Shown here: one piece after another, positions 6,502 through 32,178 of the stretch
Numbering within the stretch: position 1 is the stretch's first letter
Layout of the letters: each line of letters opens with the position of its first letter
Source of the DNA: Melioribacteraceae bacterium
Lineage (GTDB): Bacteria; Bacteroidota; Ignavibacteria; Ignavibacteriales; Melioribacteraceae
Direction: 5' to 3'
NCBI GenBank assembly: GCA_026983955.1
Contig: JALSTB010000154.1
Coordinates: 1 to 35,737 of the forward strand
Length of the DNA stretch: 35,737 nucleotides
Notes under the pieces: model-generated
What the model saw: only the letters and a program-made list of their open reading frames with translations
Database searches by the model: none
What the model was told of the DNA's origin: nothing
Translations under genes and position numbers: made by a program

Positions 6502-7353
6502 ATGGAAAATTTTGTAAAATTCCTCATAAAAACCGAGCCGTTCAACCCGGAACTTTTAAGCGGGGTTTTGTGGGAACTTGAAATTTCCGGAATTGAAGAG
6601 AGCGATAACTTTATTTCCGCTTATGCAAAAATAAGCTCGCAATTGGATAAAGAAGCAATCGAAAGGCTTCTAAATAAATTGAAGGCGGAAAATTTAATCG
6701 AAAGTTTCATCGTAACCGAAGAGGAAATTGAAAATAAAAACTGGAACGAAGAATGGGAAAAGAAACAAGAAATAATTAAAATTCCACCGCACATTGTTAT
6801 TCGTCCGTCATTCAAAAATTACGAACCGGAAAAAGAGGAAATTGTAATAATCATTAATCCAAAAATGTCGTTCGGTACGGGGAGACACGAAACAACCCGT
6901 TTGATGTTGGAAATGCTGCAAAAATATATTAATCAAGGAGATGAAGTTTTGGATGTGGGCAGCGGAACGGGAGTGCTATCAATTGCCGCAGCAAAAATGA
7001 GCGCAAGGCGAGTCCTTGCAATAGATAATGATGAATGGTGTTACATTAACGGTATTGAAAATGTTCAAATAAATAAAGTTTCCGGTATAGTGGAAGTACT
7101 GCACACGGAAATCGGTTCAATAAAAAACCGGAAATTCGATTTGGTTTTAGCAAACATTAATAAGAACATTTTGTTATCAATACAAAAAGAACTCGCCCGC
7201 ACTACTAATAAAAGCGGCAGATTAATTCTTTCGGGAATACTCAATTCCGATGAAAGCGAATTAATCCGAACTTTTGAAAACTATTCGTTTAACTTACTCG
7301 AAGTAAAAAGATTAAACGAATGGTCTGCTTTAACTTTTAAAAAGCAAAATTAA
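6502..7353 (+). CDS. prmA: Ribosomal protein L11 methyltransferase
   Basis: PrmA uses S-adenosylmethionine to trimethylate ribosomal protein L11. The 283-residue product shows the family order: an N-terminal alpha/beta domain, the NWNEEWEK linker motif, the diagnostic PKMSFGTGRHETT segment, the SAM-binding loop VLDVGSGTGVLSIAA, and the LANI motif. It sits five bases after dacB with no clear Shine-Dalgarno site, so translation may depend on coupling. Its stop TAA overlaps the stop of the opposing MarR gene within the four bases TTAA. Confidence 0.95.
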   Translation: MENFVKFLIKTEPFNPELLSGVLWELEISGIEESDNFISAYAKISSQLDKEAIERLLNKLKAENLIESFIVTEEEIENKNWNEEWEKKQEIIKIPPHIVIRPSFKNYEPEKEEIVIIINPKMSFGTGRHETTRLMLEMLQKYINQGDEVLDVGSGTGVLSIAAAKMSARRVLAIDNDEWCYINGIENVQINKVSGIVEVLHTEIGSIKNRKFDLVLANINKNILLSIQKELARTTNKSGRLILSGILNSDESELIRTFENYSFNLLEVKRLNEWSALTFKKQN

Positions 7354-7778
7354 GAAGCTATTTTATTCAACAGTTTCAACAATTGCTTCAATTCGTTTTC
7401 CGACAATTTATTCGTAAAACTTTGCAAAGTTTTTACATGTTCCGGAAAAAGTTTCTCGAATTTTTGTTTTCCTTTCGGAGTGATTTCCGCGTTAATAACT
7501 CTGCGGTCTTCTTTCGAAGGATTTCTTTTTACGAGATTTTCTTTTTCCAAATTGTCGATTACACATGTGATATTTGCACCGGTCACATGCATTTGTTCGC
7601 TAATTCTCTTCAAAGGAATACTTCCCTTTTCAGTTAGAATTTCAAGAACACTAAATTGAGGGCTGGTTAACTTGTGCGCATATACTTTTTGAGCATGAGC
7701 TCTTTTCAGTACTTCGTACGCTTTGTTCATTGTTTCCCACAATTCGAGTGCTGCTTGTGCTTTGGTTTGTTTAGCCAT
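7350..7778 (-). CDS. MarR-family winged-helix transcriptional regulator
   Basis: This 142-residue protein has the MarR layout: helices for dimerisation at both ends and a central winged helix (about 45-105). The recognition region is PLKRISEQMHVTGANITCVIDNLEKENLVKR, here noted as residues ending in the wing motif NPSKEDRRV, with ITPKG after it. MarR proteins are usually repressors relieved by small phenolic or lipophilic ligands. The start has a strong ribosome binding site (GGAAGGGAG). The gene follows the YgjP-type gene by 18 bases, so the pair is probably one transcript read from the promoter near 8504-8534. The divergent men operon begins close by and could be a target, but nothing in the sequence proves that. 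Confidence 0.9.
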   Translation of the reverse strand: MAKQTKAQAALELWETMNKAYEVLKRAHAQKVYAHKLTSPQFSVLEILTEKGSIPLKRISEQMHVTGANITCVIDNLEKENLVKRNPSKEDRRVINAEITPKGKQKFEKLFPEHVKTLQSFTNKLSENELKQLLKLLNKIAS

Positions 7779-7796
7779 GTTTCTTTCTCCCTTCCA

Positions 7797-8465
7797 TTAG
7801 TTAAGAAATAAGCCTAATTGATGTTTGTGGATTTTGTAATCGGGCATAATTGCCTCCACTAATTTCCAAAATTTTTTCGAATGATTCATTTCTTTTAAGT
7901 GACACAATTCGTGTACAACAACATAATCAATAATTTTATTGTTAAAATACATAAGTTTATAATTAAAAGAAAGTGTTCCGTTACTCGAACAGCTTCCCCA
8001 GCGGTTTTTTTGTCCGCGAATAACAACTTTATTGTATACAAATCCGGCTTTACCGGAAAAATATTCAACTCTTTTGGGTATATACCGTTCTGCTTCTTTT
8101 TTTAGCCAATCGTTATAAAGCTTTCTTATATTTTCAACTTTATTTGTATTCAATATTAATAATTTATTATCTAATATCAAAGATGTTTTCGATTGACGCA
8201 AATTATTTCCGGTTACTACTTTCAATTCATTTCCAAGGAAATAAAACTTCCTTAGTTTATTTTGAATATTTTGGTAATTTTTAAGTATCGCTTTATTTTT
8301 AATAAACATTAGTTCTTCGGCCTGTGAAATACTTACAAATCTCGGTACTATTAAATGTATTTCACCGTCCAAATTTATTTTTAACCGAACATATTTGGCT
8401 TTATTGCTCTTTTTAACCGAATATGTTATTTTATTGCCGTTTATGTTAACGGATTTATTATTCAA
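7797..8465 (-). CDS. YgjP-type (DUF45) zinc metallopeptidase-like protein
   Basis: The product carries the YgjP/WLM-like signature: RWGSCSSNGTLSFNYKL followed by VVHELCHLKEMNHSKKFW, giving the HEXXH zinc motif (HELCH) and a third histidine in NHSKKFW. Family members are predicted cytosolic metallopeptidases of poorly known role. I place the start at the TTG at 8465, giving 222 residues beginning NNKSVNINGNKITYSV, which matches the usual family start. A longer reading from a TTG at 8534 adds about 23 AT-biased residues, and that TTG coincides with the -33 element of a promoter (8504-8534). There is no ATG upstream in frame. The family call is firm and the start is moderate. Confidence 0.85.
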   Translation of the reverse strand: MNNKSVNINGNKITYSVKKSNKAKYVRLKINLDGEIHLIVPRFVSISQAEELMFIKNKAILKNYQNIQNKLRKFYFLGNELKVVTGNNLRQSKTSLILDNKLLILNTNKVENIRKLYNDWLKKEAERYIPKRVEYFSGKAGFVYNKVVIRGQKNRWGSCSSNGTLSFNYKLMYFNNKIIDYVVVHELCHLKEMNHSKKFWKLVEAIMPDYKIHKHQLGLFLN

Positions 8466-8503
8466 TATTAATATTACGATATAGTAATGTGCAAGTTTAA
8501 AAT

Positions 8504-8534
8504 TAAAATTAACTCTTTTAATTTGAAAGTTCAA
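8504..8534 (-). promoter_or_regulatory. Candidate Bacteroidota-type promoter for the YgjP-marR unit
   Basis: On the minus strand TTG (8534-8532) is followed, after exactly 20 bases, by TAATTTTA (8511-8504), one mismatch from TAnnTTTG. It lies about 39 bases before the proposed TTG start at 8465. It overlaps the -33 element of the oppositely directed menF promoter. Confidence 0.4.
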
Positions 8535-8552
8535 GTAGAAACGTTATATTTA
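8523..8552 (+). promoter_or_regulatory. Candidate promoter of the menaquinone operon
   Basis: TTG (8523-8525), 19 bases, then TATATTTA (8545-8552) matches the Bacteroidota consensus with one mismatch. The same bases read as a sigma-70 pair, TTGAAA-N16-TATATT. The predicted transcript would start around 8557, about 20 bases before the TTG start codon of menF. Confidence 0.45.
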
Positions 8553-8577
8553 TGTATTATTTTTTAGACGGGAAAAA

Positions 8578-9978
8578 TTGGCTGACTTATACGAAAAACT
8601 TGATAAATTCAACGAAATTATCGGGATAAATTCCGGAAATCTTTCAAAATCAATTAATCTGATTAGTTTTTCCACTGAAATTGAATTTGTGGATCTTAAT
8701 TTTTTAATTCGGAATTTTAATATTAAATCCGAATTTTTTTATTGGAGCATATCGGAACAAAACATCTCATTTCTTGCTTTCGAGCCGGTTGTTAATATAA
8801 CCGAAAACGGTTCGAAACGGGTTGAACTGACCGATGAAAAAATTTCCGTTTTACGGGAAAACTTCATTAATAATTGGCAAGAAAACAATCTGCATAATCC
8901 TCCGCTTTTTTTTGGTGGCATGAAGTTCGCACCGGACCAGAAAAGTGAAGTTTGGCAAGATTTTTCCGATTCCGATTGGTTTATACCACGCTTTTTAATT
9001 ATAAATAAGCAAGGCAAATCTTATCTGATTATAAATTATTTTTCCACTGAAGTGAAAACTTTACGGAACAAATTGGAAAATATTCTTAAACTTTTAACCG
9101 GAACGCAAAATGTTCAACCTTCAACTACTGAAAACAAAATTAAAATAGTTGACTTCAAAGAACATAACGGTTGGAATGAAAAAGTTATACTGGCTCTAGA
9201 AAATATTTCGAAAGGCTCAATTCAAAAAATAGTTCTTTCACGTGAAGTGGAATGGGAACTTTCCGGCAAACCGGATTTAAGCAATATTCTTAAAACTTTA
9301 AGTAAAAGATATCCCAAGTGTTATGTATTCGCATTTAAGAGAAGCAATTCCGTTTTCTTCGGAGCTTCACCGGAAAAACTTGCAAAAATCTCAAACGGAT
9401 GGATTGAGGCGGATGCACTTGCCGGCTCAATTTCAAGAGGCAAAACGGAAGAAGATGACAAGATACTGGAAAATGAACTTCTTCACAGCAAAAAGAATTT
9501 ACACGAACAACAAGCCGTAGTTGAATTTATTACTTCATCCCTCAGAAAAATTTCCGATGAAATAATTTACGATGCTGAACCGGTTATAAGAAAACTTCCA
9601 AACATTCAACATTTGTGGACGCCAATTAAAGCCAAACTGAAAAACGAAATGCCTTTGTTTTCGATACTGAAACAATTGCATCCCACTCCGGCAATTTGCG
9701 GAGCGCCATGGATGAATGCACTCAAATCGATTACGGAAATGGAAGAACACGATAGAGGTCTGTATGCCGGAATTGTAGGATGGCTCAGCTTCGAAAATGA
9801 AGCGGAATTTGCAGTTGCAATCCGCTCTGCACTTTATAAAGAAAATAAAATTTTCGCCTACGCCGGCTGCGGAATCGTTGAAGGTTCGGAACCCCGGGAA
9901 GAGTTTAACGAAACGGAGCTGAAATTAAAACCAATTAAAAATCTCTTCGTTTATGAAAATTCCTATCAACCGCAATAG
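8578..9978 (+). CDS. menF: Isochorismate synthase
   Basis: MenF converts chorismate to isochorismate, the entry step of menaquinone synthesis. The C-terminal half is a chorismate-binding domain with IVLSREVEW, ADALAGSISRGKTEEDD, LHEQQAVVEFI, the LHPTPAICGAP motif and the Mg-site region YAGCGIVEGSEPREEFNETELK. Length (466) fits MenF/EntC. The start codon is TTG at 8578 with a weak GGGA ahead. The only nearby ATG (8552) is out of frame. This is the first gene of the men operon and overlaps menD by 26 bases. The position beside menD makes MenF far more likely than a salicylate or siderophore role. Confidence 0.94.
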   Translation: MADLYEKLDKFNEIIGINSGNLSKSINLISFSTEIEFVDLNFLIRNFNIKSEFFYWSISEQNISFLAFEPVVNITENGSKRVELTDEKISVLRENFINNWQENNLHNPPLFFGGMKFAPDQKSEVWQDFSDSDWFIPRFLIINKQGKSYLIINYFSTEVKTLRNKLENILKLLTGTQNVQPSTTENKIKIVDFKEHNGWNEKVILALENISKGSIQKIVLSREVEWELSGKPDLSNILKTLSKRYPKCYVFAFKRSNSVFFGASPEKLAKISNGWIEADALAGSISRGKTEEDDKILENELLHSKKNLHEQQAVVEFITSSLRKISDEIIYDAEPVIRKLPNIQHLWTPIKAKLKNEMPLFSILKQLHPTPAICGAPWMNALKSITEMEEHDRGLYAGIVGWLSFENEAEFAVAIRSALYKENKIFAYAGCGIVEGSEPREEFNETELKLKPIKNLFVYENSYQPQ

Positions 9979-14284: not shown

Positions 14285-15360
14285 ATATAGAAAGTTTAAA
14301 TTTTTATTCTTATAAGTTAAAATTTTGCCAACCCCTTAGAACATCCAAGGAAACATTTATTTTCCGGGAAGGTTTTATCATCAGATTGACTGACGGACAA
14401 AACACACAATATTTTGGGGAGGTGGCACCACTTCCCTCTTTCGGAACGGAAACTGCAGGTGAAGCAAGTGATAAATTGAACCAACTGAAAAACATAATTA
14501 AAAATACAGACCTGCCGGAAATTTTTAATATTTTGAATTCCATCAAATTATATAATTTTCCCGCTGTAAAATCCGGCATGGAGCAAGCAATAATCAATTT
14601 TTCTTTTCTTAACGGATTTGAACCCGTGACCGGTCAATTTCAAACCTCTTCAAAAGAGTTTAAAGTTGCCGGAATAACCGGAGCTTCACAAAAGCAAAAT
14701 TGCAAACCGGTTATGAGCGAATTAATTGAAGCAGGAATTAAAACTTTCAAGATTAAAACCGGTAAGGAAAATTTTGAAAATGATTTGGCTTGCATAAAAA
14801 CATTACGGGATTTGGATGAAACCGTTGCCATACGTTTGGATGTTAACGGTGCATGGTCTTTCCGTGAAGCCAAAAAGAAAATTGAAAAATTAACCGGGTA
14901 CGGAATCGAATTTATAGAACAACCGGTAAAAAGTTTGAACGACCTTTACAAACTCTCGAAAATTTCACCAATCCCTATTGCGGTTGACGAGTCAATTAAA
15001 AATTACAAAACAGCAAAAGAAATTATCGAGTCCGGAATTTTCAAATTTGTTATTCTTAAACCGGCAGTGTTGGGCAGCATTTTAGATTCGTTAAAATTAA
15101 TTGATTTGGGCAATACTCATAAGGTTAACATAATTATTTCTTCATCATTCGAATCCGTGTTGGGAAAAAGCATTTTATATTTATTGGCTGCACAAACAAA
15201 CCACAATTTTGCACATGGGCTTGTAGCAAACAAAATTTTCGATGATGATTTATTCCGTGACCCTTTCTGCATCAAGGACGGAAAAGTTAAATTCGAACTT
15301 GCCCGTTATATTGATTTTATTAAACAGCTAACGGAACTTGAATATGATGAGCATAGATAA
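14281..15360 (+). CDS. menC: o-Succinylbenzoate synthase
   Basis: MenC dehydrates SHCHC to o-succinylbenzoate and belongs to the enolase superfamily. Catalytic signs are FKIKTG (the KxK pair), the metal ligands in RLDVNGAW, FIEQPV and VDESIK, and the second lysine in FVILKPAVLG. The protein is 359 residues, close to the usual length, with an N-terminal capping domain containing the PLPSFGTET stretch. It is coupled to menA by ATGA and overlaps the start of menE by 17 bases. An N-acylamino-acid racemase or dipeptide epimerase would look similar, but the operon settles the role. Confidence 0.93.
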   Translation: MNIESLNFYSYKLKFCQPLRTSKETFIFREGFIIRLTDGQNTQYFGEVAPLPSFGTETAGEASDKLNQLKNIIKNTDLPEIFNILNSIKLYNFPAVKSGMEQAIINFSFLNGFEPVTGQFQTSSKEFKVAGITGASQKQNCKPVMSELIEAGIKTFKIKTGKENFENDLACIKTLRDLDETVAIRLDVNGAWSFREAKKKIEKLTGYGIEFIEQPVKSLNDLYKLSKISPIPIAVDESIKNYKTAKEIIESGIFKFVILKPAVLGSILDSLKLIDLGNTHKVNIIISSSFESVLGKSILYLLAAQTNHNFAHGLVANKIFDDDLFRDPFCIKDGKVKFELARYIDFIKQLTELEYDEHR

Positions 15361-16798
15361 GCCAGGTGGCAATTGGTTGTTTGCACAAAAGGAAATCAAT
15401 CCGGATAAAATATTTTTAACAACGGATGATGGACAACTTACTTTTTCGGAAGTTTATGAACTTGTGATAAAATTCGAACATTTTTTATCAGGTAAAATAA
15501 AAAAAGATTCTTATGTTCCGCTTCTATGTGAAAATAATCCCGGTTTCATTATTTCGATCTTCGCACTTTGGCAATACGGAGCTACACCGGTTGTACTGAA
15601 TCATAAACTGACCCAACGGGAAATAACAGCAATTATACAACGGTATAACTTCAGCCATATACTGTTGCATTCCGGTTTGCAGAACAAATTTTCTTTTACA
15701 AATATAAATCTAATTATTTTCCCGGATTTGTTTGATTATGACGTTGAAGAAACCAAAGCCGGAAATTACAAATCGACTGCGGTTGTTTTATTTACTTCCG
15801 GCAGTAAAGGCGAACCGAAAGGAGTGAAATTATCTTTCGGAAATCTCTTCCACAACGCTTTATCATTTAATTATGAATTTAAATCTGCGGCGGAAGATAA
15901 ATTTTTAGCGTCGCTACCTTTTTATCACATTGGCGGATTTTCCATTATTACCCGCTCAGTTTTGTGTGGAATGCAAATTATATTTCCCAACGGACTTAAA
16001 ACGGAAAACCTATTAACCGCTTTAAAAGTACACAAACCCACATACATTTCATTGGTGCCAACAATGCTGAAAAGATTAATTGAGAAAGGCTTAACCCATT
16101 ACGAAGGGCTTAAGAACATATTTGTTGGCGGAGCCCCTTCAACTCGCAACATTTTAACAGATGCGCTTGGCAAACATCTGCCGGTAACATTGGTGTACGG
16201 GGCAACGGAAACGTCATCGATGATAGCATTTAAGAAGTTAAAAGATTCTAACGACGAATACAACGGTTTGAAACCGATGAGAAACGTTAACCTTAAAATA
16301 ACGGACGACCGTAAAAATGAAATGCCTGCAAATACAATTGGCGAAATTGTTGTTTCCGCTCCGCAAGTTGCACAAGGCTATTTACACAACAAAGAATCCT
16401 CAGCCGTTAAATTCGAAAACAATTCTTATTATACTGGCGATGCGGGATACATCGACGAAACCGGAAAATTGTTTGTGTTCGGGCGAAAAGACGGGATTAT
16501 AATTTCCGGCGGGGAAAACGTAAACCCGTCCGAAATTGAAGAAGCCCTCCTTTTACATCCCGGCGTTGAAGATGTTTATGTTTTCGGGGAAGCTAACGCG
16601 GAATGGGGCGAGCAAATTGTTGCTGCAGTTAAAATTATTGCTAATTCAAACATTACAATTTCAAATTTAAAAGAATATTTGCGCACTAAAATTGCTTCAT
16701 ACAAAATTCCGAAAAAATTCTTTTTCGTGGATGCGATTCCCCGGACAGAATTGGGAAAAGTGAAACAAAGCGAACTGAAAAATTTATTAAATATTTAA
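15344..16798 (+). CDS. menE: o-Succinylbenzoate-CoA ligase
   Basis: MenE activates o-succinylbenzoate with ATP and CoA. It is an ANL-superfamily adenylating enzyme: the P-loop is VLFTSGSKGEPKGV, the A5 motif YGATETSS, the A7-A8 region YYTGDAGYID followed by GRKDGIIISGGENVNPSEIE, and the catalytic lysine is in ELGKVKQSEL. I choose the ATG at 15344 (484 residues), which has GGAA a suitable distance upstream. The ATG at 15347 or a TTG at 15338 are possible. It is the last gene of the operon, and its TAA shares the bases TTAA with the stop of the opposing thioesterase gene. Confidence 0.94.
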   Translation: MMSIDKPGGNWLFAQKEINPDKIFLTTDDGQLTFSEVYELVIKFEHFLSGKIKKDSYVPLLCENNPGFIISIFALWQYGATPVVLNHKLTQREITAIIQRYNFSHILLHSGLQNKFSFTNINLIIFPDLFDYDVEETKAGNYKSTAVVLFTSGSKGEPKGVKLSFGNLFHNALSFNYEFKSAAEDKFLASLPFYHIGGFSIITRSVLCGMQIIFPNGLKTENLLTALKVHKPTYISLVPTMLKRLIEKGLTHYEGLKNIFVGGAPSTRNILTDALGKHLPVTLVYGATETSSMIAFKKLKDSNDEYNGLKPMRNVNLKITDDRKNEMPANTIGEIVVSAPQVAQGYLHNKESSAVKFENNSYYTGDAGYIDETGKLFVFGRKDGIIISGGENVNPSEIEEALLLHPGVEDVYVFGEANAEWGEQIVAAVKIIANSNITISNLKEYLRTKIASYKIPKKFFFVDAIPRTELGKVKQSELKNLLNI

Positions 16799-17199
16799 TA
16801 TTTTAAATATTTTCTTAATCCGTCGTATAAATCTTTTTGTAATTTCACTTTTTTGAATTCCGCTCTGTCCACCGCAACATGAACCGTTTTCCCTTTTGCC
16901 ACTTCATTGCCTTCGCTTGAAAGAATATTGTAACTTAACTCGAATGATGATTCCCTCAATTGTGTTACTGTAACGTTAATTTGAATTTCATCGTGCAGTT
17001 TTACGGGCGAAATATAATCGGCTTCCGAATGGATTATCGGAAGAATGTATTTTTCACTTGCAAAATAATTTTCCGCAGTATTTAAACTTTCGAGTAATTC
17101 TTCATACGCTTGGTGCAAAAGTTTAAATAACTCGACAAAATAAATAATTCCACCCGGATCAACCTGGTCGAAATAAATTTTCTTTTTAACAGAAAACAT
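16795..17199 (-). CDS. 4HBT-type hotdog thioesterase, candidate DHNA-CoA hydrolase
   Basis: This 134-residue protein has the 4-hydroxybenzoyl-CoA thioesterase pattern DQVDPGGIIYFVELF, with D14 at the usual catalytic position, and the hotdog core VKLHDEIQINVTVTQL...SFELSYNI. Known DHNA-CoA hydrolases in cyanobacteria and plants are of this fold. The men operon ends tail to tail with it (four-base overlap) and otherwise lacks a DHNA-CoA hydrolase, which MenA needs to receive free DHNA. Assigning it to that step is an inference from context. A general acyl-CoA thioesterase such as YbgC is the alternative. The start has only a weak GGGA ahead. Confidence 0.82.
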   Translation of the reverse strand: MFSVKKKIYFDQVDPGGIIYFVELFKLLHQAYEELLESLNTAENYFASEKYILPIIHSEADYISPVKLHDEIQINVTVTQLRESSFELSYNILSSEGNEVAKGKTVHVAVDRAEFKKVKLQKDLYDGLRKYLKY

Positions 17200-17731: not shown

Positions 17732-19075
17732 ATGAGTAATTATTATTTCCCTTTCAAATTTTCAATTCTGCTTTTCATTTTTTTGTTGCCGGTAAATCCC
17801 GCTTTTTCACAATCCGGCAAAAAAGAAATAAAGAAAACCTTTTACGAAAACGGGAAACTCAAATCCGAAGGCGAATACGTAAACGGGGTAAAAAACGGAT
17901 ACTACCGTGAATACTACGAAAACGGCAACTTGTGGAAAGAGTGGTATTACGAAAACGGCTTGGAAGAAGGACCATCGTACTGGTATTTTGAAGACGGCAC
18001 ATTGAGTATGATTTGGAATTACAAACACGGAAAACTAGACGGTAAACAACAATGGTTTTACGAATCCGGTGAACTTTGGGCAACTCCCAATTTTGTAAAC
18101 GGTGTGCGCGAGGGTTATACGGAAACATATTACAAAAGCGGCGCGCTTCAAGGAATTTGGCTATACAAAAACGGAAAGCTGAACGGTACTTCAAAGATTT
18201 TTTATGAAAACGGCAAACTGGAAGTTGAACGGAATTACGTCGACGGCAAGTTGAACGGAATCAGTAAGGTTTACAACGACTACGGCGGCGTTGCACTCGA
18301 AGCAAATTATAAAGACAATGTTTTGGACGGAACTTCCTATTTATATTATCCCGACGGATCAATTAAAGTAATTGATACTTATAAAAACGGACAAATAGTA
18401 AAACGTAAACGTTACGATATTGTCGGCAATTTCGACAAAGTGGAAGAGGATTTTAAAGATTACTACGCCGACGGAATTATGAAATCGGAACAACATTTCC
18501 ACGAAGGCGAACTGGACGGATTGAATAAATATTATTACCATAACGGGTTTCTCAAATCAGCGTTGTATTACAACCGGGGCAAGCTCGATAGTACCTCAAA
18601 GTATTATTCGGAAAGCGGGATTCTACAACGTGTAACAAATTACTCGAATAATGTTAAAGAAGGCAAAGAGCTGATTTACAATGAAGACGGCATACTCGAA
18701 AAAGAACAAAATTACTCCAACGGTATTCTGTCCGATACGCTAAAAACATTTTACGAATCCGGAGAGTTAAAATCGATCACCGTTTATAAAAACGGCACAC
18801 CTGAAGGCAAGGCGGTTTCGTTTTACAAAAGCGGTAATAAATACGAAGAGTTCAATTATGCAAACGGAAAGCGAGAAGGTTACTACACACAATATTTTCC
18901 CGACGGTGAAATGAAAGCATACGGATTTTATAAAAACGATTCATTGGACGGAAAATACTACGAATATTTTGAGAACGGATTACTTAAACTCGAAGCAGTT
19001 TACTCGAAAGGGAAAATACAAAACCAAGTTAAATACAATCCGGACGGAACGAAAGTAAGATCAGCTACTCAATAA
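17732..19075 (+). CDS. Secreted MORN/YwqK-type repeat protein with fifteen 24-residue units
   Basis: After a signal peptide (residues 1-27, ending AFSQ) and a short linker, residues 39-436 consist of repeats with the pattern [E/P]-[N/D/S]-G-x-L-[K]-x-x-x-x-Y-x-N-G-x-x-[D/E/N]-G-x-x-x-x-[Y/F]-[Y/F]. I count seven exact 24-residue units (39-206), one unit with a 15-residue insertion (207-245), seven more exact units (246-413) and an incomplete last one. This is the MORN-variant repeat of YwqK-like proteins, often named antitoxin components without evidence. The exported form suggests a surface or periplasmic beta scaffold. Its end overlaps the opposing gene by 11 bases. Function is unknown. Confidence 0.88.
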   Translation: MSNYYFPFKFSILLFIFLLPVNPAFSQSGKKEIKKTFYENGKLKSEGEYVNGVKNGYYREYYENGNLWKEWYYENGLEEGPSYWYFEDGTLSMIWNYKHGKLDGKQQWFYESGELWATPNFVNGVREGYTETYYKSGALQGIWLYKNGKLNGTSKIFYENGKLEVERNYVDGKLNGISKVYNDYGGVALEANYKDNVLDGTSYLYYPDGSIKVIDTYKNGQIVKRKRYDIVGNFDKVEEDFKDYYADGIMKSEQHFHEGELDGLNKYYYHNGFLKSALYYNRGKLDSTSKYYSESGILQRVTNYSNNVKEGKELIYNEDGILEKEQNYSNGILSDTLKTFYESGELKSITVYKNGTPEGKAVSFYKSGNKYEEFNYANGKREGYYTQYFPDGEMKAYGFYKNDSLDGKYYEYFENGLLKLEAVYSKGKIQNQVKYNPDGTKVRSATQ

Positions 19076-20021
19076 AAACCGGTTTATCATCAAGCAACAC
19101 TTTTATTTTATCATTCTCAAAAATCAATTGTGCATGCTGAAATTCACGTTCGTTCAAAACAGAAAGTAATTCATCCGAGCCATTCAATTTACTTTGCCGC
19201 ACAACCGCAATTTTATTATACCAAATGCCGTTTTTCAATTCCGCGTCGGTTGAAGTAACCGACACAATTTCATTATTATTAAATGCGGCTGTTAAAATAT
19301 ATTCGTCTTTTCCGAAATTGCGCTCCCACATCACTTTCTTATTTGTCAAATCGAGCAAGAAGATTTTATGCTTGTCGTACCCAAGAAAATAATTACCATT
19401 TTGAGAAAAACTTCCCTCGTCAAATTTTTGATTAACTTCAAAAACCGGATTGCCGCTCAAATCAAAAATTCCGGTAATTCGCTTCAAATTATTTACGTCC
19501 CAATAATATGTTGATACCGCAACAAGATTTTTATCCTTAAAAATCTTTATTCCGCTTCCGTAGGTTCCGGTAACTTTGAACTCGTTAAGCAAAGCACCGC
19601 TATTATTATAAATCTTAACAATTGAATTTATAAGATTATGTTGGGAAATCAGAAAAGCAACAACTCCATTGTCCGGATCGGAAAACACGGTCCTTTCATA
19701 AGCAAAAGGAATTTTCCCAAAGAGTGTAGCCGTACTTATTTTATTACCCTCCGGATTGTAAAACTCAGCATTACCTGCCAGTACATCAACCAGAACAACT
19801 CCGGCGTTATCAAGTAAAACCGGGTGCGGTGCCGTTTCCTTCGATGTAAGAGCTTTGTTTATTTTATACAAAAGTTCGCCTTTCCCATCAAAAACTTTTA
19901 CTTCGATAACTTTTTTTGAATCATTTTCTTTGAAATTGGTCTTAACACTAAAATCCGTTTTATTGTTAACTTGACCGAATATTACCGTTACCGAAAAAAT
20001 TATGCTTAAAATAGTTTTCAT
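19065..20021 (-). CDS. Exported propeller-like protein, function unknown
   Basis: This 318-residue protein starts with a signal peptide (MKTILSIIFSVTVIFGQ). The remainder is made of recurring short beta blades with VFDGKGELLYKI, VKIYNNSGALLNEF, TGIFDLSGNPVFEV and IFLLDLTNKKVMWE, which looks like a WD40/PQQ-like beta propeller without the exact family signature. No sorting tail is visible. It is the last gene of the long minus-strand run, 13 bases after the M23/type IX protein, and its TAG stop lies inside the end of the repeat protein gene. I do not recognise a function. A surface or periplasmic binding role is a guess. Confidence 0.75.
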   Translation of the reverse strand: MKTILSIIFSVTVIFGQVNNKTDFSVKTNFKENDSKKVIEVKVFDGKGELLYKINKALTSKETAPHPVLLDNAGVVLVDVLAGNAEFYNPEGNKISTATLFGKIPFAYERTVFSDPDNGVVAFLISQHNLINSIVKIYNNSGALLNEFKVTGTYGSGIKIFKDKNLVAVSTYYWDVNNLKRITGIFDLSGNPVFEVNQKFDEGSFSQNGNYFLGYDKHKIFLLDLTNKKVMWERNFGKDEYILTAAFNNNEIVSVTSTDAELKNGIWYNKIAVVRQSKLNGSDELLSVLNEREFQHAQLIFENDKIKVLLDDKPVFIE

Positions 20022-23727: not shown

Positions 23728-25389
23728 TTATTTATTTTGAATTAATATTTTTCCTTTTTTAATTGTATTGCCGGATTTGGTAACATATAAATAAATTCCG
23801 GTAGGAAGTTTGTTTCCATTTGAATCCATTCCGTTCCATACAACTGTAATTTTGTCGGTTGCAAATATTTTGGCTCTCCCCGAAAAAACCAAATCCATTC
23901 CGGTAGTATAAATATTGAAATCGGCATAACCGCTTTCGTTAAGAGCGGCAGGCAAGTTCAAATACGAACCACTGTTGCCATATTCGAACGGTTGCGGGAA
24001 TGCATAATCGATTTCGTTCCGGTTTAATTGTCCTTTAGTCAATACATTATTAAAAATATTCGATTCATACAATTTCTCCGTGTTGTCCGGTGAAATTTTG
24101 GAATAGTAAAATTCATTTATTTTTTTATATCCGTCCGAATTTTCAGAGGATAAAGAGTAATCGAACTTCAATCCGTTATTCTGCGGATCCAAACCTCCTT
24201 CAATGTCGGTATTTGAAATGATTGAAACAAGTGTGTCGGTAAACCCTTTTGAAAAATCGGGAAACACCAAATAGTTATTTGAAACCGGCTCGGAGTTAAT
24301 CATTACTTCTTTTTTGGGAGGAACGAATTCAATGGTTGTTGTGGGCTGAACAAGCGGATAATTGGCTGCTTCATCAAAATATTTTCCGGATTTGGTTCTG
24401 TAACCTGTAAAGTAAACCCAAATACCAAACGTGTTAAATTCCTGCTTGAACGAATAACCTTTTTCTTGTATTGCTTTTGCGATTGCAACCAATGCGCGGT
24501 CATCCACCAGAAGTTCCCAACTGCGTTTAATAATGTTGAAACCCAACATAGAGTTTTCCGGTGCAAAACGTTCAACTAAAAATATGTTCCAAATTGCCAA
24601 ATCGTATCCGCTGTGTGCCGATATTGTTGAGAACGGACGGTAAAAATAAGAGTTCATATAAGCGTAGTAATCGTTTACATCGTCGTACACAAATTCTTCC
24701 ATCGATGTGGAAGTAAGTTCATAATACCAAGTATCTTCTTCTCTGAAAATATAATTCCCCAATTGTATTGCATGATGAAATTCATGTGCGGCGGTAACCC
24801 TTGCCGCATTAATTCCGGTAGTGTTGTAATTCGCAAAATCGTTATCCATCACCATGAAAGAAGTACTTGTTAAATTGGTAACTTGATCTTCCGGCTCGGT
24901 ATATCCGTAAAGCCCGCCGGACAAGTTAAGGACGTAAACATCATACTTATCGTCTCCACCTGCATTGTTATCTTTAGGCGGAGGCGGATAGCCGAGATAA
25001 TTTACTTCGAAGTTGTATGCCGAATCCAATGCAACAGCCAATTGATTTATATCATAACCCGGTTTGTTTGTATTATCGAAAAAATAATGAACGCGGAAAA
25101 AACCGGACGGTGAAACAATGCTTGTATCGGCGGAAGGTCTTTGCATTATTTGTTGTATCCGGTATTGTTGTTCTTTTGAGAATTTATCGATGTTAGATTT
25201 GATTGATGCCACCAGACCGAAAGCACATTTTACAGTATTGTTTACGTTTTGAATTGTTCCGTTTTTACTTTGCGGTGCCGAACCGTTTGTAATTTTAATT
25301 AACTCGCTGAAGAGAGAATCGGTATTTTGCGAATAAAGGTTTGAGTTCAAAATTATAAGCACAATTATAAATATATAAGCTTTAATCAT
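23728..25389 (-). CDS. Secreted HEXXH metallopeptidase-like protein (MXAN_6640-like)
   Basis: The 553-residue product starts with a signal peptide (ending NLYSQ). A catalytic-looking zinc motif, AAHEFHHAIQ, places HEXXH at H202-H206, and MEEFVYDD about 25 residues later offers a glutamate third ligand, as in gluzincins. The DDKYDVYVLNLSGGLYGYT stretch before it is typical of the MXAN_6640-type putative metalloproteases. The C terminus (TVVWNGMDSNGNKLPTGIYL...KGKILIQNK) resembles a FlgD-like/type IX sorting tail. It overlaps the upstream FG-GAP gene by eight bases and precedes ccmA by ten. Peptidase activity and type IX export are predictions. Confidence 0.85.
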   Translation of the reverse strand: MIKAYIFIIVLIILNSNLYSQNTDSLFSELIKITNGSAPQSKNGTIQNVNNTVKCAFGLVASIKSNIDKFSKEQQYRIQQIMQRPSADTSIVSPSGFFRVHYFFDNTNKPGYDINQLAVALDSAYNFEVNYLGYPPPPKDNNAGGDDKYDVYVLNLSGGLYGYTEPEDQVTNLTSTSFMVMDNDFANYNTTGINAARVTAAHEFHHAIQLGNYIFREEDTWYYELTSTSMEEFVYDDVNDYYAYMNSYFYRPFSTISAHSGYDLAIWNIFLVERFAPENSMLGFNIIKRSWELLVDDRALVAIAKAIQEKGYSFKQEFNTFGIWVYFTGYRTKSGKYFDEAANYPLVQPTTTIEFVPPKKEVMINSEPVSNNYLVFPDFSKGFTDTLVSIISNTDIEGGLDPQNNGLKFDYSLSSENSDGYKKINEFYYSKISPDNTEKLYESNIFNNVLTKGQLNRNEIDYAFPQPFEYGNSGSYLNLPAALNESGYADFNIYTTGMDLVFSGRAKIFATDKITVVWNGMDSNGNKLPTGIYLYVTKSGNTIKKGKILIQNK

Positions 25390-27451
25390 TCACCGTCCTG
25401 AAATTGATAGTATTTTCAAGCGAATCGGAATAGACGAAATATTTTTTGTTGTTAAGTTGCAATATTTCAAAATATGATGGAGCATGAATCTTGAATAACT
25501 TCACAAAATCGATTTTATTTTTTTCCTTCAACAGTTTCGCACTGTAAACGTATTTTGATTCTGCATCGTAAAGGTAAATATACGCTTTATTTTTATTGTT
25601 CTCATAAATTTTCAAATTTGATGAATCTTTAATCCGGGCGGGAATATCTTCCCCTTTTACATTTAATTTTATTAACCGTTTGTTTTTCAAGAGGAAAAAC
25701 GTAAAGTTGTTTTCACTGTTTGTGATATGCAACGATTCATTTTTATCTGCATTTAGTATCACCGTAACTTTTGTATTGACCGAATCACCGTCCGCTTTAA
25801 CCTTTGATAAATCGACTATATTTTCACTTCCGGTAAGAGGATTATATTTTTTAAAAATAATTCCCTTTGTATTACGGACATAGTAATAAACGGAACCACT
25901 CTCTTTAACGGTAACCGCTTTACCTACAAAATTAGTATCGATTAACATCGTGTTGGAATTTACAAAATGCCCTTTAAGCCGGTCAAAGCTTTCCACAAGG
26001 AGGCTATCGCTGTTTCTTTCGAGTACAGCTATTGACGAACCGGAATGTGCAATAACCGAAATTATAGGAAAAGACGAATAAACGGCTTCCCGCTTAATTC
26101 TGTAGCCGTTGAAATCACGGGTTAATATTTCAACCAATCTCCCGCCCGGAGAATAGCAATGAAACTCAACTTGTGCTCCGGATTTCTTAAACAAATCAAT
26201 CTCGTTGTGTTTTTCCACCAAATCGTCAACGAATAAAGTAGAAAAAAATTCCGTGCCCTTGCCGGTCAATGTTTTCAACGTGTTGTCGTATGAATCGATA
26301 AAATAAAAATCGAGCTGCTTGTCAAAATTCAAATCATCCACATAAAACTTTTTGACTTTCCCCCCTAATTTAATCGCAACGGAATCGGTCAACTCAAATT
26401 TTGAATAACCGTAAAATCTTCCGCCCGGTGAAATTAATTGCAAACTGGAATTGGAAAAACCGCCAATTTTCATTTCGGTAAAAACGTTTCCACCGCTTAG
26501 TAAAAACGGTTGAGAATATTCCTTACCGTTCGAAAGTTTCAGATAGCAATCTTTTTTATTGTCGTCCAGATAAATTAAATCCGGCATTCCGTCTGAATTG
26601 AAATCGGAAAAACCGTATTCATAAATGCTTTGCGGAGTGCCAATCGTTTTCTTTCGGTTAAAGGAGGAAACCGAATCGCCAAACAAAATTACAACGGAAT
26701 TACCGGCGGAAAAGGAAATATCGGTAAAATCATCCCCGTTAAAATCGAGTACGGAAAGATTTTTTATATTTTGCCGGAAAGGTATGCTTCTTGTTACTTT
26801 ATAGAATCCGTTGTTATCGTTCATCAGAAGAACAATCTCATTTGCAATCAAATCAATTGCCGCTAAATCCGGAAAGCCGTCGTAATCCAAATCTATAAAT
26901 TTCAAGGATGATAATATTTTATTTTTAATTATTTTATTTTCAGATAACTTATATTTAAGTTGTGTAACAAGGGACAAACCGTTAAAGTTATTGCCGTAAA
27001 CAACTGCTTCATTACGACCGTCGTTATTAACATCGCCAATTAGAAGTTTTCCGGGGTAGGAATCGAGGCTCTTCCTGTTAAGCAAAATCATCGAGCCTTT
27101 ATCCGTAAAAGATGTAAGTCCTATTTTTCTTTTTTTCTCCGAAGCAAAGAGATAAAAATCACCTAGCGGTTGAACGGAATTGAATTTTCCGAAATCGGAT
27201 AACGGATAGAAAAAGAATTTCTGCGCAACGGTAAATTTTTTGCCGGTTTTGTTAATTACGGCAAATCTTTTTTCCGGTGAACCGATAAGTATTACTTCTT
27301 TTTCAGTATCACCGTCGATGTCAATTATTTTAAATCTGGAAAATCCTTCCGGAATGGTAAATTGATTAACCTGGCAGAAACCGTTCAATGTAATTTGTGC
27401 GAATAAAACTTTGGCAAACAGAAAAAAGATTAAAATTTTATTTGCCGCCAC
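25382..27451 (-). CDS. Exported FG-GAP/VCBS-repeat beta-propeller protein
   Basis: The protein contains at least five calcium-binding-like FG-GAP blades: DIDGDTEKEV, DVNNDGRNEA, DLDYDGFPDL, DFNGDDFTDI and DFNSDGMPDL, plus a degenerate DLNFDKQLDF. Such propellers are usually extracellular binding modules. A good signal peptide (NKILIFFLFAKVLFAQ) starts cleanly at a GTG at 27451, which overlaps the preceding thioesterase gene by 14 bases. ATG starts at 27496 or 27514 would put a basic, Gly-rich stretch before the signal and overlap that gene by up to 77 bases. With the GTG the product is 689 residues. No sorting tail is visible. Function is unknown. Confidence 0.83.
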   Translation of the reverse strand: MAANKILIFFLFAKVLFAQITLNGFCQVNQFTIPEGFSRFKIIDIDGDTEKEVILIGSPEKRFAVINKTGKKFTVAQKFFFYPLSDFGKFNSVQPLGDFYLFASEKKRKIGLTSFTDKGSMILLNRKSLDSYPGKLLIGDVNNDGRNEAVVYGNNFNGLSLVTQLKYKLSENKIIKNKILSSLKFIDLDYDGFPDLAAIDLIANEIVLLMNDNNGFYKVTRSIPFRQNIKNLSVLDFNGDDFTDISFSAGNSVVILFGDSVSSFNRKKTIGTPQSIYEYGFSDFNSDGMPDLIYLDDNKKDCYLKLSNGKEYSQPFLLSGGNVFTEMKIGGFSNSSLQLISPGGRFYGYSKFELTDSVAIKLGGKVKKFYVDDLNFDKQLDFYFIDSYDNTLKTLTGKGTEFFSTLFVDDLVEKHNEIDLFKKSGAQVEFHCYSPGGRLVEILTRDFNGYRIKREAVYSSFPIISVIAHSGSSIAVLERNSDSLLVESFDRLKGHFVNSNTMLIDTNFVGKAVTVKESGSVYYYVRNTKGIIFKKYNPLTGSENIVDLSKVKADGDSVNTKVTVILNADKNESLHITNSENNFTFFLLKNKRLIKLNVKGEDIPARIKDSSNLKIYENNKNKAYIYLYDAESKYVYSAKLLKEKNKIDFVKLFKIHAPSYFEILQLNNKKYFVYSDSLENTINFRTVND

Positions 27452-27920
27452 GGCGGGATTCCAGACGGTTTTGCCTCCTTTGGAGCGCTTCTTCATATCT
27501 TCTTTTTTCTTCATCGGTTTCCGGTATTATTCCGAATGTTTCCACAGGTTTGTTATTTTCGTCAACGCTTACGAACGTCAGATAAGCCGAATTGGTATGA
27601 ACACATTTCCCTTTCGAAAAATTTTCAGCGTGAACTTTAACGCCCACTTCCATCGAAGTTTTAAATGCCCTGTTCACCGAAGCGACAAGGGTTACAACAT
27701 CTCCCAGTTTAATCGGTTCGTGAAAATCTATTTTATCGACCGAAGCGGTAACGCAAACCCTTTGCGAATGTTTTCCGGCGGCAAGTGCAGCACAAATGTC
27801 AATCCAGTGCATAAGCTGACCGCCAAGCAAATTCCCGAGCTGATTCGTATGGTGCGGCAAAACCAGCTCCGTCATTGTGATAATCGATTCGCTTACACGT
27901 TTACTTTTTCTTTCCGGCAT
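27438..27920 (-). CDS. Acyl-CoA thioesterase, hotdog fold (YciA/ACOT type)
   Basis: This 160-residue protein matches the acyl-CoA hydrolase pattern of YciA and brain-type ACOT: MTELVLPHHTNQLGNLLGGQLMHWID (as NQLGNLLGGQ and MHWID), followed by VTASVDKIDFHEPIKLGDVV. It hydrolyses acyl-CoA to free acid and CoA in the cytosol; chain-length preference is not readable. The C-terminal tail is very basic and overlaps the start of the FG-GAP gene. It begins three bases after the BamD-like gene, so it is part of the same transcript. Confidence 0.92.
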   Translation of the reverse strand: MPERKSKRVSESIITMTELVLPHHTNQLGNLLGGQLMHWIDICAALAAGKHSQRVCVTASVDKIDFHEPIKLGDVVTLVASVNRAFKTSMEVGVKVHAENFSKGKCVHTNSAYLTFVSVDENNKPVETFGIIPETDEEKRRYEEALQRRQNRLESRRGGK

Positions 27921-28729: not shown

Positions 28730-28739
28730 ATCGGTAATC

Positions 28740-29333: not shown

Positions 29334-29371
29334 AAATCAGGCATTCCGTTTAAGTTTTACTTATCCGGTTT

Positions 29372-29402: not shown

Positions 29403-29466
29403 GGTTAATATAAATCAACTTCTTACTTAAACGGCACGTAAGCGGATAAAGTTCCGTTGCACTTTA
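29388..29466. repeat. Long-range inverted repeat TAAAGTGC/GCACTTTA in the porQ divergent region
   Basis: TAAAGTGC at 29388-29395 is the exact reverse complement of GCACTTTA at 29459-29466. Between them, CTTAC (29422-29426) pairs with GTAAG (29438-29442). The left arm sits in the spacer of the minus-strand promoter. It could be a paired operator or a folded leader; I cannot decide which. Confidence 0.4.
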
Positions 29467-29472
29467 AATAAA

Positions 29473-29492
29473 TCCCATTTTCTACAATGGGA
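29473..29492. repeat. Short perfect hairpin between divergent genes
   Basis: TCCCATT, six bases, AATGGGA form a seven-base stem. No T-run follows on either strand, so it does not look like an intrinsic terminator. A regulator binding site or an mRNA hairpin upstream of porQ is possible. Apart from this, the inverted repeat and the promoter, I see nothing coding in the 237-base gap 29334-29570. Confidence 0.4.
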
Positions 29493-29570
29493 AAATCCGG
29501 CTGAAAAATTAATTACCTTGCCATTAATTTTTTTTATATTTAATATCGTCTCGTAAATTTTGAGGAGTTA

Positions 29571-30479
29571 ATGAAGAAACTGATTTTATTGGTTTTAATT
29601 TCGAATGTAATATTTGCGCAGAACACTTTTGAATTTCTCCGTCTCGATACCAGTCCGCGCGCTGCGGCGTTAGCCGGCAGTTTCGTATCGAACAACGATG
29701 ACCCGAACGTAATATTTTACAATCCGGCCGGAATTGCACAATTGGAAAAGAAACCGGCCTCGTTTTCCTTCTTAAAACATTTATTGGATATAAATTCTGT
29801 TAGCTTGGCATATTCCCAATTGTTCGAGGGCATCGGAAGATTCGGAGCCGGTATTCAATATATCAATTACGGAAGTTTCACCGAAGCAAACGAATTCGGA
29901 GAGAAAACCGGTAAATTCGGTGCCGGTGAATTTGCTTTGACAATTGGTTATTCAAACGAGTTGGGCAACAATTTTTATTACGGTGTAAATACAAAATTCA
30001 TCTATTCTTCAATTGCCGACAGATACTCAACCGGCATAGGATTCGACCTCGGATTACAATACACAATTCCGGGCAGTAAATGGAATTTCGGCTTATCTAT
30101 TCTTAATGCCGGAACCCAAATAAAATATTTTTACAGCACGCGGGAAGAGTTACCGCTGGATATAAGAATCGGGGTTTCAAAAACACTTGAACATTTGCCC
30201 TTCACCTTCTATGTTTCTTTAAATAAATTGAACGAAGAGAAAGACCGTTTCAAGCAATTTACCGTTGGCGGTGAATTCCGGCTTTCTAAAGTTTTGCGTT
30301 TGCGTTTTGGTTACGATAACGAAAAACGGCGCGAACTTAAAATCGGGACAACCGCAGGAATTGCCGGATTCAGCATAGGCGTGGGTTTCGTTGTAAAAGA
30401 ATATCATATCGATTATGCTTATTCATCGATGGGCTTTATCGGAGCACTACACAGAATCGGTGTAACCACTTCATTTTAA
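29571..30479 (+). CDS. porQ: PorV/PorQ-family outer-membrane protein, probably PorQ of type IX secretion
   Basis: The 302-residue product has a signal peptide (LISNVIFAQ) and the PorQ-like start NTFEFLRLDTSPRAAALAGSFV, then DDPNVIFYNPAGIAQLE and a series of amphipathic beta strands of a FadL/PorV-like barrel, ending in phenylalanine. PorQ is an accessory outer-membrane protein of the type IX secretion system. The sorting-tail protein at 20035-22380 is a candidate client. GAGGAG gives a good ribosome binding site. The stop overlaps the opposing TPR gene at TTAA. PorV is the alternative, but that is usually about 100 residues longer. Confidence 0.87.
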   Translation: MKKLILLVLISNVIFAQNTFEFLRLDTSPRAAALAGSFVSNNDDPNVIFYNPAGIAQLEKKPASFSFLKHLLDINSVSLAYSQLFEGIGRFGAGIQYINYGSFTEANEFGEKTGKFGAGEFALTIGYSNELGNNFYYGVNTKFIYSSIADRYSTGIGFDLGLQYTIPGSKWNFGLSILNAGTQIKYFYSTREELPLDIRIGVSKTLEHLPFTFYVSLNKLNEEKDRFKQFTVGGEFRLSKVLRLRFGYDNEKRRELKIGTTAGIAGFSIGVGFVVKEYHIDYAYSSMGFIGALHRIGVTTSF

Positions 30480-31645
30480 TGCAAGTAAGGACGCTTCAAA
30501 TATTTTTCCGCGCGCTCATGTGAATTTTTATACTCGTCCATAGCCAAAACTTTTTTGTACTGTGCAATTGCTTTCTCCCTCTGATTAAGCTGGTCATATA
30601 CCATTCCCAAATACAAGACTGCATTTACTTGAAAACCGGAGGGTTCGTCACCGTCGATTTTTCCGGAAAGTTCCACACAACGGTTAAACATTACAAGTGC
30701 GGAATCGAGTTTTTTATCAATATCGTATTTCACACCGATATAATAAACCGCTTCACGTTCAACTTTTTCAGTGTATCCGGTAAGTCCGGCTTTACATTTG
30801 GCTAAAATGTTTCCGAAGACCGAAACTGCGCTTTTGTAATCACCCTTGCGAACGTAAATCCGCCCGTAATATCTTTGAAATGTAGGATTATCGGGAAAAT
30901 CATTAACGAGCATTTTGGCATAATACAGTGCTTGATTATATTTCTCTTCATATTGATAATACAAAGTCAGCAGAAAAAACCGTGCTTCAATTTTCGCATA
31001 TTTTGCACGCTGCGCAACTTCTTTCAACTGTTTAATTCCCAATTCTTTATTACCTTCGGGAAAGAAAATCATCACAGGTTTGATAAACGGATATTTTTCC
31101 GGAATTGCTTTTGCGTAGTAATTATAAATACCGAAACCTAGTTTAACCTCCACATTCTCCGGATCCAACTCGTAAACCTTGTAAACCAGAGGAAGAGCGT
31201 CTTTCCCGTCCAAAGCGGCATTCAGCCATTCTTTCCGCAAAGCATACAATCTGCCGCGGAAGCCGAGCGAGCCACCTTTGAAAAACATTGCGTCGATGTT
31301 TCCGGGATCTTCGTCTAAAATACTGTCGCACATAGCGATAACATTTTCCAATTTATCCACAAAAATATCGTCGTAGCTTTCGTTTTTTGTATCGAGCATT
31401 ATTTTCCACCAAACAATCATTGCATCGAAAAATTTTCCTGCGGGGTGATGCGGATATTTACGCCGGACAAGCTCGAATGTTTTTTCAGCCTGTTCAAATT
31501 TGATATTGTAAATCTGGTAAATTCCGGCGGTTATTAATGAATCGAACTGCGAATCGTTAAGCTGGGCGGAACTAACAGCAGATATGCTTAAAAATAATAT
31601 TAATAAAATCTTTATTTTTAACTTTAAAATAATTTTTCCGTTCAA
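30476..31645 (-). CDS. Exported TPR-repeat protein
   Basis: The protein is all helical with tetratricopeptide repeats, for example QIYNIKFEQAEKTFELVRRKYPHHPAGKF (shown as EQAEKTFELV), NQALYYAKMLVNDFPDNPTF, DYKSAVSVFGNILAK and REKAIAQYKKVLAMDE. A signal peptide ends in AVSSAQ. No ATG exists upstream in frame. A TTG at 31645 gives a compact signal peptide, has GGA seven bases ahead, and lies about 30 bases after a promoter match (31674-31705). A TTG at 31717 would add 24 residues and lie upstream of that promoter. With the chosen start the product is 389 residues. TPR proteins scaffold complexes; the partner is unknown. Confidence 0.82.
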   Translation of the reverse strand: MNGKIILKLKIKILLILFLSISAVSSAQLNDSQFDSLITAGIYQIYNIKFEQAEKTFELVRRKYPHHPAGKFFDAMIVWWKIMLDTKNESYDDIFVDKLENVIAMCDSILDEDPGNIDAMFFKGGSLGFRGRLYALRKEWLNAALDGKDALPLVYKVYELDPENVEVKLGFGIYNYYAKAIPEKYPFIKPVMIFFPEGNKELGIKQLKEVAQRAKYAKIEARFFLLTLYYQYEEKYNQALYYAKMLVNDFPDNPTFQRYYGRIYVRKGDYKSAVSVFGNILAKCKAGLTGYTEKVEREAVYYIGVKYDIDKKLDSALVMFNRCVELSGKIDGDEPSGFQVNAVLYLGMVYDQLNQREKAIAQYKKVLAMDEYKNSHERAEKYLKRPYLH

Positions 31646-31673
31646 TCTCAAATCCGTAACCGTTTTGAATTTT

Positions 31674-31705
31674 GAAATATATTGTTTTCTACTCAAATAA
31701 GCCAA
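31674..31705 (-). promoter_or_regulatory. Candidate promoter deciding the TPR gene start
   Basis: TTG (31705-31703), 21 bases, TATATTTC (31681-31674), one mismatch from TAnnTTTG. Transcription would begin around 31667, downstream of the TTG at 31717 and upstream of the TTG at 31645, supporting the shorter protein. Confidence 0.4.
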
Positions 31706-31827
31706 ATAAAGTTTCAAAGCAAATTCAGGATGTTCCGGTTTTAAAGGCGCCGTTCCATTTCAATAATGTTATTTTTATTAATTTGTTTTTTATATTTCCG
31801 GATTTTATAACAAACAAAGGCGGGCAA

Positions 31828-32178
31828 ATGAATATTCAAATTTTCGGAACGAAAAAATGCAATGACACAAAAAAGGCGGAACGGTTTTTCAAGGAACGCG
31901 GAATAAAATATCATTTTCGTAATCTTAACGAAAAAGGAATCAGCAAAGGCGAGCTGGAGAATATAAAACATGCAATACCACTCGAAGAATTAATCGATAA
32001 AAACGGGAAGGAATTCAAAAAAAGAAATTTGCAGTATATGGTTTACGATACGGAAACCGAACTTTTGGAAAACCCGTTATTATTTAAGACGCCTGTTGTA
32101 CGAAACGGTACAAAGGTCACGCTCGGATATCAACCGGAGATATGGAAACAATGGATAGCGGAAGAAACCGGCAATTAA
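31828..32178 (+). CDS. ArsC/Spx-family thioredoxin-fold protein
   Basis: The 116-residue protein has the ArsC-family pattern: IFGTKKCNDTKKAERFFKERG (as KKCNDTKKAE) with a single N-terminal cysteine (C11), RNLNEKGISKGEL, and KTPVVRNGTKVTLGY around the conserved cis-proline. The CxxC of Spx is absent, so it is closer to YffB/ArsC-like proteins of uncertain function. I start it at the ATG at 31828, which follows GGCGGG. A longer reading from 31672 adds a non-homologous hydrophobic stretch. Possible promoter: TTGTTT (31783-31788), 17 bases, TATAAC (31806-31811). Its stop shares TTAA with the opposing HAD gene. Confidence 0.88.
   Translation: MNIQIFGTKKCNDTKKAERFFKERGIKYHFRNLNEKGISKGELENIKHAIPLEELIDKNGKEFKKRNLQYMVYDTETELLENPLLFKTPVVRNGTKVTLGYQPEIWKQWIAEETGN

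Follow-up and report, generated by a model that had tools for sequence, protein, structure and literature searches.

How do two converging genes come to share their last four nucleotides, and how does transcription end where no DNA separates them? Both questions are raised by the window analyzed here, the whole 35,737-base contig C154 of a Melioribacteraceae bacterium, from a draft genome (G000) of 3,118,183 bases in 190 contigs with 98.4% completeness. Five convergent gene pairs were identified in this window, both from its list of open reading frames (ORFs) and with a gene finder written for this analysis, and all five overlap. At four junctions the two stop codons share the tetramer TTAA: at 7350-7353 (PrmA/MarR-family regulator), 16795-16798 (AMP-binding ligase/thioesterase), 30476-30479 (PorV-like protein/TPR-repeat protein), and 32175-32178 (ArsC-family protein/HAD-family hydrolase). 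The fifth overlap, at 19065-19075 between the genes for a MORN-repeat-variant protein and a 318-amino-acid protein, is 11 nucleotides long. The original prediction, made from the letters of the window, had reported these tail-to-tail overlaps, and its coordinates for the four tetramers and for the longer overlap agree with ours; the absence of intergenic DNA that it described holds at all five junctions. No sixth convergent junction was present among the gene calls for the window.

The gene finder, trained on the sampled genome described below, recovered the same gene ends as the ORF list; its calls were checked against the ORF list of the window only, and small missed genes would widen the gaps given below. 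Pfam matches were obtained for nine of the ten junction proteins, one of these (the PorV-like protein) being under the Pfam cut-off. At the four TTAA pairs both frames are real genes, as judged from Pfam matches for all eight proteins, including the PorV-like one below the cut-off, and from homologues of all of them in relatives. The minimal convergent overlap, four nucleotides, is thus represented by four of the five junctions, always as TTAA, while the 11-nucleotide junction stays outside this class. We consider it probable that these junctions are ordinary minimal convergent overlaps of a compact genome, and that the converging transcripts would be ended by Rho or by collision of the opposing polymerases.

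Frequency and origin of the four-nucleotide overlap

Convergent spacing was determined in a sample of 81 stretches of the genome (1,125,853 bases, or 36% of its length), in which 978 genes were called and 89 complete convergent pairs were found; pairs are lost at the cut ends of stretches, and, since two stretches of contig C2 have a 2-kb repeat between them, one pair could have been counted twice. Overlap was observed at 18 of the 89 pairs, and an overlap of exactly four nucleotides, at 12 pairs, was the commonest spacing. The original prediction had held that the window would be a coincidence if four-base convergent overlaps were rare throughout the genome; at 12 of 89 sampled pairs, they are not. 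Outside the window, 13 of the 84 pairs overlap, eight by exactly four nucleotides, and the only overlap lengths observed there were 4, 14, 15, and 20 nucleotides. The most frequent spacings outside the window were -4 (eight pairs), 0 (six), +1 (four), and +7 (four). With overlaps included, the spacing was 20 nucleotides or less at 52 of the 89 pairs. Convergent spacings in the sample cluster between -20 and +20 nucleotides, and again at about 55-73 nucleotides. In smaller samples of relatives, overlap was found at 6 of 24 pairs in genome G001 (four by exactly four nucleotides), 5 of 13 in G011 (four), and 2 of 22 in G048 (two). For Escherichia coli K-12, 250 kb of annotated sequence gave 5 overlapping pairs among 36, three of them by exactly four nucleotides; the coordinates were those of protein genes in the RefSeq annotation, and two junctions, of which one ends in a pseudogene and the other in an rRNA gene, were excluded.

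Because a stop codon ends with A or G while, on the plus strand, the opposing stop starts with T or C, convergent overlaps of one, two, three, or five nucleotides are impossible. The minimum is four nucleotides, which requires only pyrimidine-TA-purine at the gene end and allows four tetramers, TTAA, CTAA, TTAG, and CTAG. In a first, smaller sample of the genome, 34% of gene ends carried pyrimidine-TA-purine and 25% carried TTAA. The observed lengths were compared with an antisense-frame null model, in which the opposing frame enters randomly and ends at the first antisense stop, for overlaps up to 60 nucleotides; this model likewise gave no overlap of five nucleotides. Once a pair overlaps, the length was exactly four nucleotides in 12 of 18 cases in the genome sample, against 17% expected (p = 4e-6). 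This excess fits selection against longer overlaps, since four shared nucleotides would constrain almost no amino acid, whereas longer overlaps would.

From these counts and from the comparison of relatives given below, we infer the following course of events. A gene end of the form pyrimidine-TA-purine would provide a ready stop for one antisense frame, composed of the third base of the last sense codon and the TA of the stop codon. Once spacer DNA disappears or a stop codon mutates, an opposing gene in that frame would stop there, leaving an overlap of four nucleotides. Such an overlap would fix only one, mostly synonymous, base, and could then outlast longer overlaps. Among the tetramers TTAA predominates, owing to the AT-richness of the genome and its preference for TAA.

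Junctions between orthologs were counted in those genomes for which a locus holding both genes had been fetched, rather than in all 58. The PrmA/MarR junction overlaps in 11 of 26 genomes, eight times by exactly four nucleotides, the PorV/TPR junction in 7 of 20 (four), and the ArsC/HAD junction in 6 of 13 (two); the ligase and thioesterase genes are convergent in 36 genomes. When the four ortholog pairs were pooled, 45 of 95 genome-junctions overlap, 15 of them by exactly four nucleotides, with TTAA, TTAG, and CTAA as tetramers. Judged from these relatives, convergent adjacency is old and the junction is not fixed; TTAA itself is not conserved, because the same ortholog pairs vary among four-nucleotide overlaps, longer overlaps, and gaps.

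The PorV/TPR junction was followed further in named loci, collected by a scan with a PorV alignment and comprising 80 of 138 confirmed loci, with titles of Melioribacteraceae, Ignavibacteriales, Ignavibacteria, and Bacteroidetes. The best named PorV match, of 89% identity, is on a contig titled Melioribacteraceae bacterium. Both proteins were matched in 65 of the 80 loci and form a convergent pair in 60, of which 16 overlap (eight by exactly four nucleotides), 19 are spaced by 0-20 nucleotides, 17 by 21-100, and eight by more. These 60 loci and the 20 genomes above are overlapping, non-independent sets, and loci L312 and L314 belong to one genome. On a quick tree of the two joined proteins, with 61 rows, the minimum number of changes was 6 for overlap state, 7 for the exactly-four state, and 12 for close versus gapped spacing. 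Because overlap at this junction is concentrated in the clade of the window, inheritance and turnover both contribute. A rise of overlap throughout that clade was considered and rejected: in three clades, covering 60 of the 80 named loci, overlaps other than the PorV junction numbered 3/17, 2/11, and 3/23, with no clear clade effect. With the PorV junction included, the counts were 17/36, 2/27, and 5/47.

Termination of the converging transcripts

The original prediction had argued that no bidirectional intrinsic terminator can lie between these genes. This stands as far as intergenic DNA is concerned, of which there is none, but an intrinsic terminator can sit within coding sequence. Terminator-like hairpins were scored if they reached -6 kcal/mol or below and were followed by a T-rich tail, a threshold that requires the canonical form and would miss atypical terminators; the test was carried out per junction with a re-paired control, following an earlier version made per gene end. 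In the genome sample, hairpins were found at 2 of 18 overlapping junctions, 2 of 34 with gaps of 0-20 nucleotides, 12 of 21 with gaps of 21-100, and 3 of 16 with gaps above 100. The control, 600 re-paired gene ends, contained 40 (6.7%). Close junctions, overlapping or with gaps up to 20 nucleotides, are thus at background (4/52 versus 40/600, p = 0.77), whereas the class of 21-100 nucleotides is enriched (p = 2e-5). Since close junctions do not rise above background, many transcripts there end otherwise or run on, as the original prediction had supposed; its supposition is weakened by the ortholog junctions of relatives considered below, where the contrast between classes is absent. A weaker trend of the same kind was observed in the 80 named loci (2/27 overlapping, 2/30 at 0-20 nucleotides, 12/44 at 21-100, and 3/27 above), and the same scan of E. 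coli detected hairpins at 0 of 16 close ends and at 10 of 34 ends with gaps of 21-100 nucleotides. At this threshold, none of the window junctions has a hairpin on both strands, as a bidirectional intrinsic terminator would. The sole candidate among the ten gene ends of the window is a marginal minus-strand hairpin at 32168-32182 (five pairs, -6.7 kcal/mol, T-rich tail), which contains the shared TTAA in its loop and extends into the coding end of the ArsC-family gene.

Transcripts of the overlapping pairs, often without a recognizable intrinsic terminator, would most likely enter the antisense strand of the partner and be ended there by Rho acting on untranslated RNA or by encounter with the opposing polymerase. 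Of possible endings, Rho or polymerase collision is the likely one. A rho gene is present on contig C171 (709.6 bits, cut-off 509.45), and the ratio of C to G in the 200 nucleotides after close convergent ends was 1.26, compared with 0.84 after close co-directional genes. In Bacillus subtilis, Rho keeps antisense read-through into convergent genes in check (PMC9931155), and for E. coli head-on collision was described, in a preprint, as a prevalent terminator of convergent genes (PMC13082048).

One could go further and propose two kinds of convergent ends in this genome, perhaps in the family: a minority with terminator-sized gaps, and an abutting or overlapping majority (52/89) devoid of detectable intrinsic terminators, so that Rho or collision would have to end most of the converging transcripts. 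If so, overlapping stop codons would be a visible mark of that dependence. We regard this extension as doubtful. Its lineage-wide form is opposed by the spacing in relatives, which is 20 nucleotides or less at 11 of 24 pairs in G001, at 8 of 13 in G011, and at only 3 of 22 in G048; in the named loci it is so at 15 of 51 when the PorV junction is left out.

Evidence against compaction and alternative explanations

Several observations weigh against the combination of compaction with Rho or collision. The ligase/thioesterase junction overlaps in 21 of 36 relatives, only once by exactly four nucleotides and otherwise by 8 to 35, and the preference for the minimum is therefore not universal. The excess of C over G is expected from purine-rich coding strands, and gapped convergent ends also gave 1.15, making the ratio weak evidence for Rho. 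The hairpin contrast between spacing classes does not appear among the four ortholog junctions, with 7/45 overlapping, 5/22 at 0-20 nucleotides, 5/21 at 21-100, and 0/7 above. Moreover, ortholog junctions with gaps up to 20 nucleotides or overlaps exceed the 6.7% control of this genome (12/67, p = 0.003), as do the overlapping ones alone (7/45, p = 0.04), and because of this excess some overlaps may carry embedded terminators. Intrinsic terminators built from the last codons could then stop transcription within the overlapping coding ends, as the minus-strand hairpin at 32182-32168 with TTAA in its loop might do, and as has a precedent in E. coli, where 23 of the 116 genes that take part in convergent overlaps were reported to have putative intrinsic terminators (PMC2174442). 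We nevertheless judge this explanation unlikely for the pattern under study: no hairpin at -6 kcal/mol was scored at four of the five junctions in the window, close junctions in the genome sample match the re-paired ends, and the control was built on this genome rather than on the relatives, whose related sequences are non-independent. Still less probable is that the overlaps are kept as regulatory devices, mutual antisense read-through coupling the paired genes in an excludon-like manner. The age of the convergence speaks for it, the ligase and thioesterase genes being convergent in 36 genomes and the PorV and TPR genes in 60 of the 65 named loci holding both, and overlapping transcripts have been described at terminator-less convergent genes (PMC7154746; for Rickettsia prowazekii, PMC3027695). 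However, the junction is not conserved, the same pairs having gaps of up to hundreds of nucleotides in relatives; the best matches of ligase and thioesterase lie apart in some relatives (e.g. G009, G019, and G050); and the partners in most pairs have no evident shared function.

Compaction to the smallest possible overlap, which remains our preferred explanation and most simply accounts for the junctions, leaves over the clustering of five on one contig. The following comparisons were made post hoc. All five window junctions overlap compared with 13 of 84 in the rest of the sample (Fisher p = 2e-4), and four of five compared with 8 of 84 do so by exactly four nucleotides (p = 9e-4). A run of at least five overlapping junctions anywhere in the sampled contigs had a permutation p of 0.002 (39 contig groups), so that the run in the window is above the genome rate and is left unexplained by the compaction model. 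Given overlap, the share of four-nucleotide cases is alike inside and outside the window (4/5 and 8/13, p = 0.36). In G001, of the same genus, four of the same five junctions overlap, three by TTAA and one by 14 nucleotides, and the fifth has a four-nucleotide gap; because of these shared overlaps, the greater part of the cluster is probably older than the divergence from G001. Contamination of the contig was ruled out as a cause of the cluster, since one G001 contig carries four of the pairs with their order unchanged and their distances nearly the same; the remaining pair is on a different G001 contig. The cluster might also represent chance combined with selective reading, that is, a fluctuation noticed afterwards in one window. 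This is possible, though clearly short of an even chance, and is compatible with compaction. The window was picked for its features, overlaps occur elsewhere with four nucleotides as the commonest spacing, and the overlap rate of the genome sample is no different from that of E. coli (p = 0.46). Against chance stand the permutation result and the overlaps at the same junctions in G001, although the latter reflect one shared history and not a second test.

Genes at the junctions and comparison with known systems

The genes at the junctions are given here in order, each pair with the plus-strand gene before the minus-strand gene, all based on ORFs unless stated otherwise. Pair 1 consists of the gene for PrmA, ribosomal protein L11 methyltransferase (6502-7353; PF06325, 197 bits), and that for the MarR-family regulator (7350-7778; PF01047). 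Pair 2 is composed of the AMP-binding ligase gene (15338-16798; PF00501/PF13193), for which MenE-like is a predicted name, and the gene for a 4HBT-type thioesterase (16795-17199; PF13279). Pair 3 comprises the MORN-repeat-variant protein gene (17732-19075; PF07661) and the gene for the 318-amino-acid protein (19065-20021), which has no Pfam match; its homologue in G001, of 48% identity, occupies the corresponding position. The MORN-repeat-variant protein itself is 85% identical to its G001 homologue, and its convergent partner thus seems to evolve much faster. In pair 4, the gene for an outer-membrane protein (29571-30479), putatively PorV-like by a PF03349 match below the cut-off, faces the TPR-repeat protein gene (30476-31717; Pfam match), whose start codon is uncertain. 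Pair 5 includes the ArsC-family gene, placed at 31828-32178 by the gene finder although the longest ORF begins at 31672, and the HAD-family hydrolase gene (32175-32810; Pfam match).

Other features were noted on the way. The minus strand of the window encodes, at 7797-8534, a protein with an HELCH stretch that is metal-protease-like, its longest frame starting with TTG; we take it to resemble the YgjP/DUF45 hydrolases. A 160-amino-acid ORF at 27438-27920, also on the minus strand, shares 77 nucleotides with the beginning of the following gene (25382-27514) and was omitted by the gene finder, probably by its overlap limit, and therefore a start codon in this region may be misplaced. Elsewhere in the genome, contigs C121, C69, and C34 carry open frames of great length, reaching some 4,500 amino acids, with AMP-binding matches. 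Such frames, of which similar ones also occur in G001 and G002, have the appearance of nonribosomal peptide synthetase clusters.

The striking look of the window comes from genes packed as tightly as the geometry of their ends allows. As a by-product, ortholog junctions of Melioribacteraceae and other Ignavibacteria that vary from overlap to gap became available, and these could be used for testing how converging transcripts end without terminators. A literature search on gene overlap and convergence in Melioribacter and the Ignavibacteria gave, among the matches listed, no title on convergent overlaps in this group. With respect to termination, convergent genes of R. prowazekii offer a parallel: they are often without site-specific termination and give antisense RNA (PMC3027695). 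The evidence there is from RNA, whereas here we infer it. The head-on collision described for E. coli could likewise end converging transcripts here without a one-sided terminator, but the template of that preprint has an RNA hairpin that positions the collision (PMC13082048), while at our threshold such a hairpin is missing from four of the five junctions of the window.

With respect to architecture, convergent overlaps of exactly four nucleotides are found in E. coli K-12 at tatD/rfaH, flk/yfcJ, and yrbL/mtgA. The two genomes differ in close spacing, with ends overlapping or within 20 nucleotides at 8 of 36 pairs in E. coli and at 52 of 89 here (p = 3e-4), the gene calls coming from the RefSeq annotation in the one case and from our own gene finder in the other. 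A survey of 58 prokaryotes counted 1890 convergent overlaps, 1218 of them of at least five nucleotides, and named the tetramers CTAA, TTAA, CTAG, and TTAG; by our subtraction, 672 (36%) are of four nucleotides, and a model of origin by stop-codon mutation agreed with the overlap counts (PMC2174442). The TTAA junctions of the window match this four-nucleotide class in length, tetramers, and stop-codon geometry. They differ from it in that the exactly-four share is higher here (12/18 versus 672/1890) and that five overlapping junctions follow in a row on one 36-kb contig. The general form of the pattern is already known across bacteria, and the architecture of these junctions is ordinary.

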